Positions 5,590 to 10,307 of a stretch of DNA of 20,529 bases are shown here, piece by piece. The notes below the pieces were generated by a model that saw nothing but the letters and a program-made list of their open reading frames with translations, was not told the DNA's origin and did no database searches. The DNA comes from a virus. The stretch is from the IMG/VR virus record IMGVR_UViG_3300023176_002289, positions 1 through 20,529 of that record, one strand, 5' to 3'. How positions within the stretch are numbered: position 1 is the first letter of the stretch; every line of letters starts with the position of its first letter. Position numbers and translations under genes: made by a program.

Positions 5590-6215
5590 CCCATTCCCCT
5601 TATTTTAACTGTCAGTCCAGAACCACTTAATTGACTCTTTTCTGACATTTCATTTAATCGGGATACTGCTGCACCATACATCTGTGCCCAGACTCCCACC
5701 CTTTCATCTTCTGCTAAATATGGTGCTGAATGTACTAAAGCACCGTATAAATAAACATCAGGTGAATCTAATAATAGCCAGTTATCTGCATTACTTTCAG
5801 ATAAAGCATCTGTTTTCGCATAATACAATAATTCAACATTTGTAGTTTCGTTTGGAGTTGGATATAACTCGAACTGACTATCTGCATGTGTGTAGTATCT
5901 TGGCGTTCCGCTCATATTCTCGTTTCCTGCTCTTTTATCTTCAAGTGCCTTACGAGATATTAAATCTAGTGGTCTTGTGCCACCATCAGTGATATGGAAG
6001 CGTATAGTTTCTAACCAATCAGCAGGTATTTGCATGTAGGCATCTCCTGCACTTTGCTGTCCTGAAGCTCTTTTTTCCATCTTCCAATGACGAACATCAC
6101 GATTAATTTGTGATTCTGCTAATGCTATAAATGTTGGAATGACAGAGGTTAAATCATCTCTGTTTAAAAAATCTGCGATTGCTGACTTTAATTCTGTATA
6201 TGTTGTTATTGCCAT
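5586..6215 (-). CDS. Head-to-tail adaptor protein (SU10/gp6-type)
   Basis: The 209-residue protein starts MAITTYTELKSAIADFLNRD, followed by LTSVIPTFIALAESQINRDVRHW. This is the helical N-terminus of the adaptor family named after phage phiSU10, which forms the ring below the portal. Later blocks fit the same family: MQIPADWLETIRF, PRYYTHADSQFELYPTP, VELLYYAKTDALS, and a C-terminal helix around RVGVWAQMYGAAVSRLNEM. It starts 1 base after the terminase stop, so it is the next gene of the packaging operon. Finding the adaptor directly after TerL, with no portal or capsid between, is unusual and is noted separately. Confidence 0.8.
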   Translation of the reverse strand: MAITTYTELKSAIADFLNRDDLTSVIPTFIALAESQINRDVRHWKMEKRASGQQSAGDAYMQIPADWLETIRFHITDGGTRPLDLISRKALEDKRAGNENMSGTPRYYTHADSQFELYPTPNETTNVELLYYAKTDALSESNADNWLLLDSPDVYLYGALVHSAPYLAEDERVGVWAQMYGAAVSRLNEMSEKSQLSGSGLTVKIRGMG

Positions 6216-6216
6216 A

Positions 6217-7518
6217 TTAAACCACGCCTTGTAAGTTTCGTTTAATAGGCTCGCCCCAGTTTGTTGAGTTTGGACGATAACCTATTGCCAAATATCTAAA
6301 CGCATCTGCACCATGCGAATATAAATCATGCCGAGGTCTTAGTCTCCATGTTTTACCATTTTCGTCCCAATCTCTGCTATAGTTTACCAAACAATCAACA
6401 CCAAATTCAGTTTTTTCTTTATCAAACCAACATTTACCTAGCATTGACCTAACGGCTTGTATTCCATCATCTAGGTTTAACATAGGTGCTATCTCTACAT
6501 TTTTCATTCCTAAATTATCTAATGTTTCTAACCTAGACATGCCCGTTCCTAGTTCTCTAACTCTAACATCATGCGGTAATATGTGTTTGTCGTAAACATA
6601 ACCCTTATCTTGTAAGACTTTGACATAATGTTCTAATCCTACACCAGAACCCTCATAATAGTCAATTAAATGCACTTCTGTTCCTACAAATTGAGCAAAC
6701 CATATTGCTGTTGAATCGCCAACGCCTAAGTCCCATGCCGTAACAACTGCTGTGCTAGTATCATATCTTACGCTTGTTAATCGTTCTTCTTCCCTGATAA
6801 TACGCATTTCTCTACCATAATACGCACCCTCACTAAATGTTAAGAAGTCGCCTTCCCAGATATGTTCATAAACATCTGGTCTTTTCTCTTTATCTTCTAA
6901 TCTTTCTTTTTTTAATACATCTGGAAACCATGGATTATCTCGCCAGTTCATTTCAACCATCTTAGCACCAGCAGGTGGGTTTATCCTAAACCTTTCATGA
7001 GTTGCTGAGTATTTGCTTTCTGGATTCCATGTGACCCAAATTTCAGACCCTTGTTCACGCACAGTTGGTATAAGTTTTTGCCACGCTGTATCAGAAACAT
7101 TTTCTGCTTCATCTACCCATGCTAATAATATTCTTGATTTTGATTTGATTGAATCAAGTGAGCGTCTTAACCCTACAAAAGTGTAAGATATATTGCCATC
7201 TCTGGAATGAATATACTTTTCACCTACATCATAATAGGCATTGAGCCATGGTATGTTGCGTATCGCTGCTTTTATTTCTTCAAGTGATGAGTCATTAAGC
7301 GAGTTCATAAATTCACGCCCACAGACTATTTGACCTTGTCTGCCTGACATACCCCAATGATAACCCCATACCGCAGTCATAAGAGCAAATGTAGTCGTCT
7401 TAGCACTACCTCTGCCACCGTAACTGCATCTATATCTGGCTTCCCCTTCGAATAATGCTTGTAATTTGTCAGGAACAGTTATTTGCTGTCTAACTTTCAC
7501 TATGTTTAGGCTTGACAC
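6217..7518 (-). CDS. terL: Terminase large subunit (packaging ATPase and nuclease)
   Basis: The 433-residue length is typical. The N-terminal ATPase has a Walker A at about residues 33-41 (YGGRGSAKTT) and a Walker B with catalytic Glu at about 131-140 (ILLAWVDEAE); the VTWNPES segment that follows resembles motif III. The RNase H-like nuclease contributes AWDLGVGDSTAIW near 261-273, HDVRVRELGTG near 316-326, and a final HDLYSHGADAFRYLAIG. It cuts concatemeric DNA and pumps it into the procapsid. The start is uncertain: a GTG at 7518 overlaps TerS by 29 bases, and another GTG at 7500 overlaps it less. Neither has a strong ribosome site, so coupling to TerS is likely. Belonging to the Terminase_3-like group is inferred from the motif spacing. 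Confidence 0.95.
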   Translation of the reverse strand: MSSLNIVKVRQQITVPDKLQALFEGEARYRCSYGGRGSAKTTTFALMTAVWGYHWGMSGRQGQIVCGREFMNSLNDSSLEEIKAAIRNIPWLNAYYDVGEKYIHSRDGNISYTFVGLRRSLDSIKSKSRILLAWVDEAENVSDTAWQKLIPTVREQGSEIWVTWNPESKYSATHERFRINPPAGAKMVEMNWRDNPWFPDVLKKERLEDKEKRPDVYEHIWEGDFLTFSEGAYYGREMRIIREEERLTSVRYDTSTAVVTAWDLGVGDSTAIWFAQFVGTEVHLIDYYEGSGVGLEHYVKVLQDKGYVYDKHILPHDVRVRELGTGMSRLETLDNLGMKNVEIAPMLNLDDGIQAVRSMLGKCWFDKEKTEFGVDCLVNYSRDWDENGKTWRLRPRHDLYSHGADAFRYLAIGYRPNSTNWGEPIKRNLQGVV

Positions 7519-7849
7519 CTACAATCTCAATAATCTGAGGTTGCATTGTCCCATCGCTAGATGACATATCAAATTCTTGTTTCTCGATATACCCACGAAC
7601 TTTACCTTTAGTTTTTAGATAGAAGATTGTTGCACTATTATTGCCCTCATTGATTTGTTTATGTAGTTGGCTTTCTGCAAAGTCAAGTGCTACATTATCT
7701 AAATCTTTTACGGCTTTAGCGTATTCATCATCTTCTTTCAACCAACGATAATGTGTATCACGAGAGATGTCCACATTCTTACAAGCAGGAGTCACTACAC
7801 CGAGTGATTTTTCCAACGCTTGAATCATTAATTGTTTTCTTTTGTCCAT
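7490..7849 (-). CDS. terS: Terminase small subunit
   Basis: The chosen start gives 119 residues. The N-terminal half is a helix-turn-helix (MDKRKQLMIQALEKSLGVVT, then ACKNVDISRDTHYRWLKEDD) that would bind the packaging site. It is followed by a helical segment (YAKAVKDLDNVALDFAESQL) expected to form the ring, and a C-terminal tail. The RDTHYRWLKED block is common in small terminases. The frame is open further upstream to a TTG at 7891, but the ATG at 7849, 7 bases after the previous stop and preceded by AAAAAAGG, gives the usual N-terminus. It lies directly upstream of TerL and overlaps it, as expected for a packaging pair. Confidence 0.85.
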   Translation of the reverse strand: MDKRKQLMIQALEKSLGVVTPACKNVDISRDTHYRWLKEDDEYAKAVKDLDNVALDFAESQLHKQINEGNNSATIFYLKTKGKVRGYIEKQEFDMSSSDGTMQPQIIEIVGVKPKHSES

Positions 7850-7856
7850 ACCTTTT

Positions 7857-8690
7857 TTATGTGTCAGATTCTGTCTTATCCTTTTTACCAAAACCCATCA
7901 GCGGATAAAAGACTAATGAGTTTCTATATCCCCCTTCATGGGTAGGAATAATGGGTGTTACTCCATGAACATTCCGCCATGCAGGATAAACTAGCATTGA
8001 GTTATTACAACTATCAACAGTTGCCCCATAATCAGGGACTGTTGTGCAACCACCCTTGCTGTTTTTTCTCTTTGTTATTATTACATTAACACACTCTTTA
8101 ATGTTTTGTCTGTCAATGTGAAATGGTGCAGCGATATTAAAGTTGCTAATAGAACTCGTAAATAACTCACCAAATCTCCACTCTTTAGGAACATTCTTTT
8201 CTACTGCTTTCTTTTGTGCAGTATAAATACTTGGTGCTAATTTCTTAATTAATTGTTCGCTTTCTTTACAAGCAAGTAGCATTGCTTTAATAAATGTTTG
8301 TGCTGACTCTACTGCATGAACACTACTTCTACTAGGATAAGGTCGTTTCATGTGAGGTCTAGGTGGAATACTGCCTAAGATAGTTGAGTATTGTGCAACT
8401 GATAGTGCTATGGCTTGTTTACGAGTAATGCCTAGTTTCTTTTGTGTATCCCATACATCACTTCTTTCCATTAAAGATTTAGGCACTCTGTCTGATAATA
8501 ATTCATTGTTAGCCACAGTTATAAGTTTTTGTAGTTTCTCGCTGTGTTGCCCAATATTGCGAATGTAAAACCCTACTACTTCGCCATCTTCTACAAATAA
8601 ACAATCTTCTGTGACATTTGGTTCAATATATGGACATTTATCACCGATTCTCGTTTCGTGTTCAACTTTCTTAAGAATATGTGTTTTCAT
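7857..8690 (-). CDS. TET/JBP-type Fe(II)/2-oxoglutarate DNA-base dioxygenase
   Basis: The 277-residue protein has a helical N-terminal region with GSIPPRPHMKRPY and AQTFIKAMLLACKESE, seen in phage TET-like enzymes, and a C-terminal double-stranded beta-helix. The metal triad reads H191-x-D193 (FHIDRQN) and H242 (NVHGVTP), and R256 (GGYRNSLVFY) is the expected 2-oxoglutarate-binding Arg. A GG at 213-214 followed by TVPDYGATV matches the TET/JBP strand-turn motif. The family oxidises the methyl group of 5-methylcytosine or thymine in DNA, so the predicted product is 5-hydroxymethylcytosine or 5-hydroxymethyluracil. Its ATG overlaps the glycosyltransferase stop (ATGA). The family call is confident; the substrate base cannot be read from sequence. 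Confidence 0.85.
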   Translation of the reverse strand: MKTHILKKVEHETRIGDKCPYIEPNVTEDCLFVEDGEVVGFYIRNIGQHSEKLQKLITVANNELLSDRVPKSLMERSDVWDTQKKLGITRKQAIALSVAQYSTILGSIPPRPHMKRPYPSRSSVHAVESAQTFIKAMLLACKESEQLIKKLAPSIYTAQKKAVEKNVPKEWRFGELFTSSISNFNIAAPFHIDRQNIKECVNVIITKRKNSKGGCTTVPDYGATVDSCNNSMLVYPAWRNVHGVTPIIPTHEGGYRNSLVFYPLMGFGKKDKTESDT

Positions 8691-9418
8691 TTAACTTGCT
8701 TCCCATACTTTTTGGCAATGCCTTCTAAATCTATCTTAACCTCATATCGGTCTTTAAATTTCTTTAATTTAGCAAAACCATTATATTTCATCAACAATAT
8801 TTTATTGGCTTCTTGGTCTAATCCTGCTTCATAACTTTCATGCAGACCGCCTTTATTACTACCCATAGCAGGTGCTGAGAAATACATTTGATTAAACTTA
8901 ACTATGCCATTACCCTTGATAATACAATCAACTAGCATTTTATAATCTTCTTTCATGCCGTTGTCATAATCCCATGTTATCTTCTTAGTATTAAGCAACA
9001 TAACTGAGGCAAATAATTTTTTGTTAATGCTGTATGGTTTAGTTTCTGACCATGAGTATGGTGCATAACTAACTCCGTATGCTTCAAATGGAAGTTTCTT
9101 GGCTTTTTCTAATATCTTTAACCAGATACTGGCATCTTTGTTGCTTTTGTTTCTGCCATTAACAACAACGCCGAAGTCACTAATATCATCATCACACATA
9201 ACAATCCACTCATGACCTCTTTCCCTAGCATACTTCATCATAAAGTTTCTAACATAGGGAACGCCTTGGTCGGTAGCACCAATGTTTACTTTACATGGCA
9301 CATCATATAAATCCATCTCTTGTGGCTCAATGAAGTGGATAACCTGAATGCCGACTTTTTCAAATAACTTGTGAGTCTTTGTATTAGGTCGGCTTTTTGT
9401 AGGAATATAACAAATCAC
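8687..9418 (-). CDS. GT-A glycosyltransferase of the TET-associated type
   Basis: The 243-residue protein begins MICYIPTKSRPNTKTHKLFE, where the SR at 9-10 is a typical nucleotide-sugar contact. It has GVPYVRNFMMKYARERG and a clear acidic motif WIVMCDDDIS (D76-D78), the metal and nucleotide-sugar-binding DxD of GT-A enzymes. A second acidic pair (KEDYKM, E157-D158) and GLHESYEAGLDQE follow. This layout resembles the glycosyltransferases encoded next to phage TET enzymes, which add sugars to 5-hydroxymethyl bases. It begins with a GTG that overlaps the ParB-like stop (GTGA), and its own stop overlaps the dioxygenase start, so the three proteins are probably made in ratio. The sugar is unknown. 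Confidence 0.75.
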   Translation of the reverse strand: MICYIPTKSRPNTKTHKLFEKVGIQVIHFIEPQEMDLYDVPCKVNIGATDQGVPYVRNFMMKYARERGHEWIVMCDDDISDFGVVVNGRNKSNKDASIWLKILEKAKKLPFEAYGVSYAPYSWSETKPYSINKKLFASVMLLNTKKITWDYDNGMKEDYKMLVDCIIKGNGIVKFNQMYFSAPAMGSNKGGLHESYEAGLDQEANKILLMKYNGFAKLKKFKDRYEVKIDLEGIAKKYGKQVK

Positions 9419-10005
9419 ATTCTTTCTTTTTCTTGTTTTAACTTATCAATTAACCATAAACCGATATACGCTTCTCTATCTCTCCAGAATTTAATTAACT
9501 CTTTTGCTTCCTCAAAATGCTCAGGGTTAAACTCAATCTGAATAGACTTCTTGACATTATCAATCATGCTTTCAAGTTCAGCATCAACATCATCAGCATC
9601 ATCAAGTATTGAATAATCAACATCTTCTGCTATGCCGAATAAATCTAAACCCCATTTCTCTAGCAGTTCAGTATCCCATTCATTGCCTAAAACATCCCAG
9701 TCCCAATCACCGAACCCGACATTATCTTTAATGACAAATTCTTTTTGTTGTTCTTCTGTTAAGTTTTTAACTTGAATGACTGGCACTTTCTTTAAACCTA
9801 GTTGACGACACGCTTTTAATCGCATGTTGCCACCTAGAACCACCATATCTTCATTAACTATCAGAGGTCTTAAATCTAACATCTGAGGAAAATTCTCAAT
9901 ACTGTTCACTAATTTAGCAAACTTTACTTCGCTGATATTTCTTGGATTGCTATCGTTCTCTATGACATTGTTAATGTCCACATACTTCATTTGTTCTTTT
10001 TGCAT
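9415..10005 (-). CDS. Stand-alone ParB/Srx-fold protein of the DNA-modification cassette
   Basis: The 196-residue protein has a ParB N-terminal domain: YVDINNVIENDSNPRNISE (NPR at 20-22), LRPLIVNEDMVVLGGNMRLK with the GGNMR motif at 58-62 where classical ParB has GHGR, and KKVPVIQVKNLTEEQ. The segment VIKDNVGFGDWDWDVL resembles the linker that in many phage proteins joins a ParB domain to a DNA methyltransferase. Here no methyltransferase follows; an acidic stretch (DDADDVDAELE) and a basic C-terminal helix end the protein. ParB-fold proteins are recurrent partners in predicted phage base-modification operons, as nucleases or NTP-dependent factors. An alternative start is the Met at residue 6. 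The precise role is unknown. Confidence 0.8.
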   Translation of the reverse strand: MQKEQMKYVDINNVIENDSNPRNISEVKFAKLVNSIENFPQMLDLRPLIVNEDMVVLGGNMRLKACRQLGLKKVPVIQVKNLTEEQQKEFVIKDNVGFGDWDWDVLGNEWDTELLEKWGLDLFGIAEDVDYSILDDADDVDAELESMIDNVKKSIQIEFNPEHFEEAKELIKFWRDREAYIGLWLIDKLKQEKERM

Positions 10006-10007
10006 AA

Positions 10008-10307
10008 CTAAAACGGTATTTCGTCTTCAGGGTCTTTTCTAAAATCTTGCACTTCTGCATCATGACTTGGTTGTGTGCCATATCTAGGGTTTTCTGTTGA
10101 TGGTTTATAATCATCAATACACATATAGTGCCTACCAGATTTAGCGACCTTTACTTCAACATTAATCCATTCACCTTGCTGAGTGTTTAACCAGTTGATA
10201 AATGATTGTTTATTAATACCAAACTTAGTTCTTACAAAGTCTGGGAAATTAGGTGTTTCTTTAGGGAAATTTAACCCTTGTGCAAATATAACTTCTTTTT
10301 CTTCCAT
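10008..10307 (-). CDS. Small protein with SSB-like acidic C-terminal tip
   Basis: The 99-residue protein has a compact part with FPDFVRTKFGINKQSFINWL, then a beta stretch WINVEVKVAKSGRHYMCIDD, then a disordered linker ending EDEIPF. That end closely resembles the DDDIPF tip by which bacterial single-stranded DNA-binding proteins recruit replication and repair partners. The upstream gene is a predicted annealing protein, which supports a role on single-stranded DNA. The body is short for an OB fold and I see no proof of one, so this may be an SSB-like mimic rather than a true SSB. An AAGGAG ribosome site stands 6 bases from the ATG, behind a structured leader. Confidence 0.7.
   Translation of the reverse strand: MEEKEVIFAQGLNFPKETPNFPDFVRTKFGINKQSFINWLNTQQGEWINVEVKVAKSGRHYMCIDDYKPSTENPRYGTQPSHDAEVQDFRKDPEDEIPF

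Follow-up and report, generated by a model that had tools for sequence, protein, structure and literature searches.

Which base does a phage TET/JBP dioxygenase modify when a glycosyltransferase stands beside it and no cytosine C5-methyltransferase does? The window analyzed here, by which we mean the whole 20,529-nt stretch, a linear and incomplete 20.5-kb record, raises this question with a minus-strand gene run that the ORF list and Pfam resolve into a ParB-like protein, a TET-associated glycosyltransferase (TAGT), a TET/JBP dioxygenase (hereafter TET), and the small (TerS) and large (TerL) terminase subunits (Table 1). The original prediction offered three answers: a methyltransferase encoded elsewhere in the phage genome, methylation by the host, or thymine as the target.

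Table 1. Genes of the modification cassette and its immediate neighbors in the window
Feature	Position	Strand	Support
99 aa protein, C-terminus DEIPF	10008..10307	-	ORF; 2 bases upstream of ParB
ParB-like protein, ParB_N domain	9415..10005	-	196 aa; Pfam ParB_N 1.1e-6, PHROG ParB-like families
TET-associated glycosyltransferase (TAGT), GT-A fold, swappable decorator slot	8687..9418	-	243 aa; PF20691 7e-14
TET/JBP-family 2OG-Fe(II) dioxygenase	7857..8690	-	277 aa; PF12851 1.4e-8
Terminase small subunit-like	7490..7891 (ATG start at 7849 likely)	-	PHROG terminase small subunit 4.3e-9
Terminase large subunit (TerL)	6217..7518	-	Terminase_3 4e-24

The cassette and its enzymes

The overlaps proposed to couple the three modification genes are exact, GTGA at 9415-9418 and ATGA at 8687-8690. 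The further claim that the run continues into TerS and TerL holds for gene order, but the overlap between TerS and TET depends on the start codon chosen: the listed ORF begins with TTG and overlaps TET by 35 bases, and translation could at least equally well begin past the TET stop, at an in-frame ATG (7849). The ParB-like protein scores 29.0 bits against a cut-off of 26.3 for ParB_N (PF02195) and by this match belongs to that family, with a putative nuclease or CTPase activity. The 99 aa protein upstream has no family match in a Pfam search, is also encoded in the near-identical contigs L006 and L007, and is probably on the same transcript as ParB and outside the modification chemistry; by eye, its DEIPF end resembles the acidic tail of SSB. 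Between 18534 and 20489, at the window's upstream end, several secreted or membrane-type proteins follow one another; their starts are signal peptide-like, and none has a Pfam match. Exact end-pattern scans found no overlapping viral contig to extend the window, L006 and L007 being short, and there was no relative of the TET among 84,980 bacterial and archaeal genomes, so that no prophage or host was identified.

The dioxygenase scores 34.6 bits with Tet_JBP (PF12851), 0.3 under the 34.9-bit cut-off, and was therefore checked further with a family profile and an AlphaFold model. The profile reached human TET2 at 1.8e-7 rather than landing outside the TET/JBP family, one of the outcomes that the original prediction had named as refuting it, and the 25 best PDB matches (Foldseek) of the model (pLDDT 86.6) are TET2, CcTet, CMD1, and NgTet1. 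His191, Asp193, His242, and Arg256, which had been proposed as the active site, are intact and invariant across the 96 closest relatives. With a 2OG-Fe(II) core, an HxD...H motif, and a C-terminal Arg, the protein is a predicted TET/JBP enzyme. Public records wrongly label such dioxygenases “queuine tRNA-ribosyltransferase” (phrog_6059) or “SNF2 DNA repair protein” (L002 17129-17914, L003 12347-13132, and L131 11354-12682, for example), and the wrong label propagates across many phage records, hiding the system.

The glycosyltransferase had been recognized correctly, with its DDD motif (76-78) intact; more exactly, it is a TAGT (PF20691, 52.6 bits against a cut-off of 27.5), and the invariant pair is D77-D78, with D158 a further invariant acidic residue. 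Profile, predicted structure (AF2 model, pLDDT 91, matching GT-A folds), and acidic metal-binding motif all place the putative enzyme in this family.

One gene order, interchangeable decorators

Scanning IMG/VR yielded 464 relatives, from which 80 close loci were drawn, and the order ParB-X-TET-TerS-TerL, where X is a variable slot, recurs in about 96 related loci; relatives in culture include P12024L, Klevey, P-HS2, HTVC112P, and Tonitrus. In the window's clade, 91/95 loci have ParB no more than five genes upstream of TET, and 68/72 have TerL downstream of it. From this physical link to the terminases it had been suggested that modification is timed just before packaging, a claim left without support by the methyltransferase-free sister clades, where the TerL neighborhood is missing (1/31 and 0/16 loci). 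Terminase adjacency is thus no property of the chemistry, and we dropped packaging-timed modification, gene order by itself being uninformative on timing.

By clustering and Pfam, slot X holds a TAGT (two groups), an FkbM methyltransferase, or a kinase/amidotransferase/ADDT module, or else is empty, in which case glycosyltransferases may directly precede ParB (L010, L056). The ADDT module comprises a P-loop kinase, a GATase_6 protein, and an amino acid:DNA transferase (ADDT), and its L057 variant bears a GNAT. FkbM and TAGT are equally common beside TET in the window's clade (31/96 loci each), and the FkbM slot also occurs in cyanophages P-HS2 and MED4-117, suggesting an O-methylated hydroxymethylpyrimidine. 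Examples of the FkbM gene lie at L002 16431-17132, L014 8967-9659, and L091 5992-6690.

The content of the slot has changed at least 24 times on a TET tree of 68 sequences, on which the window falls in an all-TAGT subclade (support 96). The strongest single datum for the base question is a clean switch of decorator between 2 sister phages, L123 with a TAGT and L122 with an ADDT and kinase: their TETs are 99.65% identical (one residue of 288 different), and they share 92% nucleotide identity over 3.66 kb, stopping exactly at the swap point. Within the window's own clade, the TETs of L067 and L084 (TAGT) are 92-93% identical to that of L075 (ADDT), and those of L028 (FkbM) and L057 (ADDT) are 96.6% identical; in the HTVC112P clade, L163 (TAGT) and L165 (ADDT) show a switch between common flanks. 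On sequence grounds, the simplest account would be one product, 5-hydroxymethyluracil (5hmU), feeding different finishing enzymes.

Other genes accompany TET and TAGT in some relatives. In Arthrobacter phage Klevey (L134, 3643-6168), a PIG-L deacetylase gene comes after ParB-TET-TAGT, which hints that a GlcNAc-type sugar on DNA is deacetylated to an amino sugar. Nucleotidyltransferase or sugar-isomerase genes (CTP_transf_like, MannoseP_isomer, phosphoheptose isomerase) accompany TET-TAGT at L163 6894-8427, L166 6897-9106, and L173 5207-7921, suggesting that some phages produce their own nucleotide-sugar donor. In P12024L (L092, 6749-7384), a 211 aa DNA methyltransferase with a DPPYG motif lies right after TAGT; by eye, it is of the N6A/N4C type and not a C5 enzyme.

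The absent C5-methyltransferase

As predicted, the 20.5-kb window contains no METHYLTRANSFERASE gene (PF00145). If the TET nevertheless oxidized 5-methylcytosine (5mC), made by a C5-methyltransferase whose gene lies outside the sequenced record, TAGT would produce glycosylated 5hmC, and the incompleteness of the record and the presence of TAGT in methyltransferase-linked clusters as well (10/68 loci) both speak for such a source. Against it, PF00145 is absent from all 12 relatives recorded as complete (P-HS2, MED4-117, Tonitrus, LilMcDreamy, HTVC112P, P12024L, Cr30, Kharcho, Klevey, Margaery, LittleMunchkin, and S-CBWM1), from 20/23 related contigs of at least 25 kb, and from the four contigs of 31-35 kb in the TAGT clade to which the window belongs, those nearest to it (G026, G028, G031, and G036).

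The same search served as its own control in Methylophilales phage Melnitz, where TET overlaps an M.HhaI-like methyltransferase (PF00145, 7e-55). In a methyltransferase-linked clade built from 71 relatives of the Melnitz TET, 61/63 loci with an upstream gene have the C5-methyltransferase one or two genes upstream of TET, while on the window's side of the tree it adjoins TET in 0/150, and the 2 sets of TETs form separate clades (support 99). The pattern is all-or-none, although its Fisher p of 1e-51 overstates the contrast because the loci are related and the counts not independent. Melnitz was chosen for its adjacent methyltransferase, and the link persists to 48% identity. The window shows neither mark of a 5mC-coupled cluster, having no C5-methyltransferase in its TET run and a TET outside the methyltransferase-linked clade. 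The missing methyltransferase is a true trait of a phage TET class.

A phage-encoded source of 5mC draws some further support from 11/96 loci of the window's clade that have a C5-methyltransferase at a distance, mostly with an empty slot (L019-L027, L071, L038, L039, and L056 among them). The gene is patchy where found, however, since L020 has one, its sister L023 none, and L017 a remnant, which we read as a recent gain or loss unconnected to TET. The L017 remnant (6048-6689) matches model positions 1-79 only; the genes of sisters L019-L027 are mostly full-length. A methyltransferase elsewhere is thus an unlikely answer for the class, and a phage-encoded 5mC substrate an unlikely one for the window.

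If the TET acted on 5mC placed on phage DNA by the host, no phage methyltransferase would be required, and glycosylation would occur at host-methylated sites only. This could apply to the window phage, but phages with such a TET infect hosts as diverse as Prochlorococcus, Pelagibacter, flavobacteria, and actinobacteria, and PF00145 is found in only 1/12 Prochlorococcus genomes (MED4 itself outside those 12), making host methylation improbable for the cyanophage relatives, and for that branch only. The sparse modification to be expected would, in addition, fit poorly with the repeated gain of elaborate decorators. For the window, we regard a host-made substrate as quite improbable, more so than a phage-encoded one.

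Which base is modified

The distribution of ADDT is base-informative, unlike those of TAGT and the kinase. ADDT occurs in 23/155 window-side loci, spread over all five groups, and in 0/68 methyltransferase-linked loci, with none in the window's immediate TAGT clade. The window cassette has neither a 5hmdU kinase nor an amino acid or aGPT-type transferase; relatives carry both in the same slot. The ADDT match of LittleMunchkin reaches 1.3e-27, and the ADDT of L030 (Pfam 2.8e-20) matches proteins of ViI-type Ackermannviridae, phages whose DNA contains 5hmdU-derived bases (PMC6449724; PMC10458263). A comparable gene set in Tonitrus has been termed a thymidine hypermodification system (PMC11955845). 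By homology only, ADDT would use 5hmU rather than 5hmC.

Other candidate indicators were rejected. TAGT cannot fix the base, since it is present in both TET classes, beside a C5-methyltransferase and TET as well, and the T6 TAGT works on glucosylated hydroxymethylcytosine (PMC13216743). The P-loop kinase is likewise found beside C5-methyltransferase-TET pairs and was set aside as proof of thymine for that reason. A dCMP/dUMP hydroxymethylase as the supplier of the base was dropped, because neither the window nor 13 relatives have a thymidylate-synthase family protein (PF00303) that passes the cut-off, and there is thus no sign of hydroxymethylation at the free-nucleotide level.

In the active site, position 264 aligns with TET2 His1904, a 5mC contact. 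The window's clade has Leu there (95/96), the sister clades have Arg, and TETs of the methyltransferase-linked clade mostly have Asp (64/67). The letter tracks gene context, yet each clade is one lineage, and we offer it as a hypothesis rather than a proof. Asn196, three residues after HxD, aligns with TET2 N1387, and since TET2 is a 5mC enzyme, the pocket is no guide to the base; reading the base from Asn or Asp at this place was rejected, TET2 having Asn and both letters co-occurring with ADDT. On balance, the comparative evidence (ADDT swaps and no C5-methyltransferase) favors the thymine alternative of the original prediction over 5mC, with the substrate itself inferred.

Proposed mechanism and its significance

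We consider it probable, from gene content and homology, that thymine is oxidized in DNA to 5hmU and then glycosylated, which would make this cassette a post-replicative phage counterpart of base J. The TET, with Fe(II) and 2-oxoglutarate, would act after replication on thymine in phage DNA, hydroxylating its methyl group, and TAGT would move a sugar from a nucleotide-sugar donor onto the hydroxyl of the resulting 5hmU, giving a glycosylated base like J. ParB probably binds DNA and may direct, load, or position the modification enzymes on phage DNA. The sugar-bearing DNA would resist nucleases, those of restriction as well as of other DNA-targeting defenses.

It could also be that virion DNA carries no bulk modification and that the dioxygenase is dispensable or acts on RNA, protein, or a free nucleotide, a reading compatible with the literature covered here, which reports no measured chemistry for this clade. 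The TET fold, the invariant catalytic residues, and the constant pairing of TET with ParB and DNA-base decorators (TAGT, ADDT) across distant phages argue against it, and we rank it as the least probable of the readings considered.

Returning to thymine oxidation, the odds tilt slightly toward a broader form of it: a widespread class of marine and actinobacterial phages in which a methyltransferase-free TET would form 5hmU in place and a plug-in enzyme would finish it with a sugar, an FkbM O-methyl group, or a kinase- and ADDT-dependent amino acid adduct, swapped between sisters with near-identical TETs. To our knowledge, 5-methoxymethyluracil, which FkbM would produce in such a scheme, is not known as a natural DNA base.

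The TET, TAGT, and ADDT families were already known, as were ParB-TET neighborhoods in actinophages (PMC11955845). As far as the literature covered shows, what is new is a class without the methyltransferase and with a swappable slot, how it contrasts with the methyltransferase-linked one, the exchange of decorators between near-identical TETs, and FkbM as one of these decorators. If thymine is the substrate, then a prokaryotic virus has a counterpart of base J, and phage TET/JBP enzymes act on 2 bases, with the C5-methyltransferase neighborhood predicting which. The plug-in slot is also a natural experiment, pitting modification chemistry against restriction in sister phages that share nearly the same oxidase and differ in their final bases.

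Comparison with known systems

Burke et al. in 2021 reportedly described phage C5-methyltransferase-TET-glycosyltransferase clusters that carry out cytosine hypermodification. Like these Melnitz-type clusters, the window has a TET/JBP dioxygenase and TAGT, and its class other decorators, in a single gene run. Unlike them, the window's class has no adjacent C5-methyltransferase, ParB upstream, the terminase downstream, a separate TET clade with Leu or Arg rather than Asp at position 264, and ADDT modules.

With ViI, M6, and phiW-14 (PMC6449724), the class shares a proposed 5hmU intermediate and relatives of the ADDT/aGPT-Pplase and P-loop kinase proteins; in those phages, however, 5hmdU enters as a nucleotide, whereas the window's class, without PF00303, would form 5hmU in DNA by TET. 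The likeness to kinetoplastid base J (JBP1/2 and the J glucosyltransferase) would lie in the order of steps, thymine first becoming 5hmU within DNA and then receiving a sugar; the window system differs in being phage-borne, with no J-binding domain seen.

Iyer et al. in 2013 are said to have made the wider prediction of thymidine hypermodification genes and to have noted ParB-TET neighborhoods in actinophages. The actinophage genes of this kind, as in Tonitrus, run ParB-TET-aGPT-Pplase/ADDT-kinase (PMC11955845). The window shares with that set a ParB gene first, TET next, a terminase nearby, no C5-methyltransferase, and a TET from a sister clade, and differs in having TAGT in place of ADDT and kinase. 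Its closest analogue among actinophages is Klevey, in which the order is ParB, TET, TAGT, and PIG-L deacetylase.
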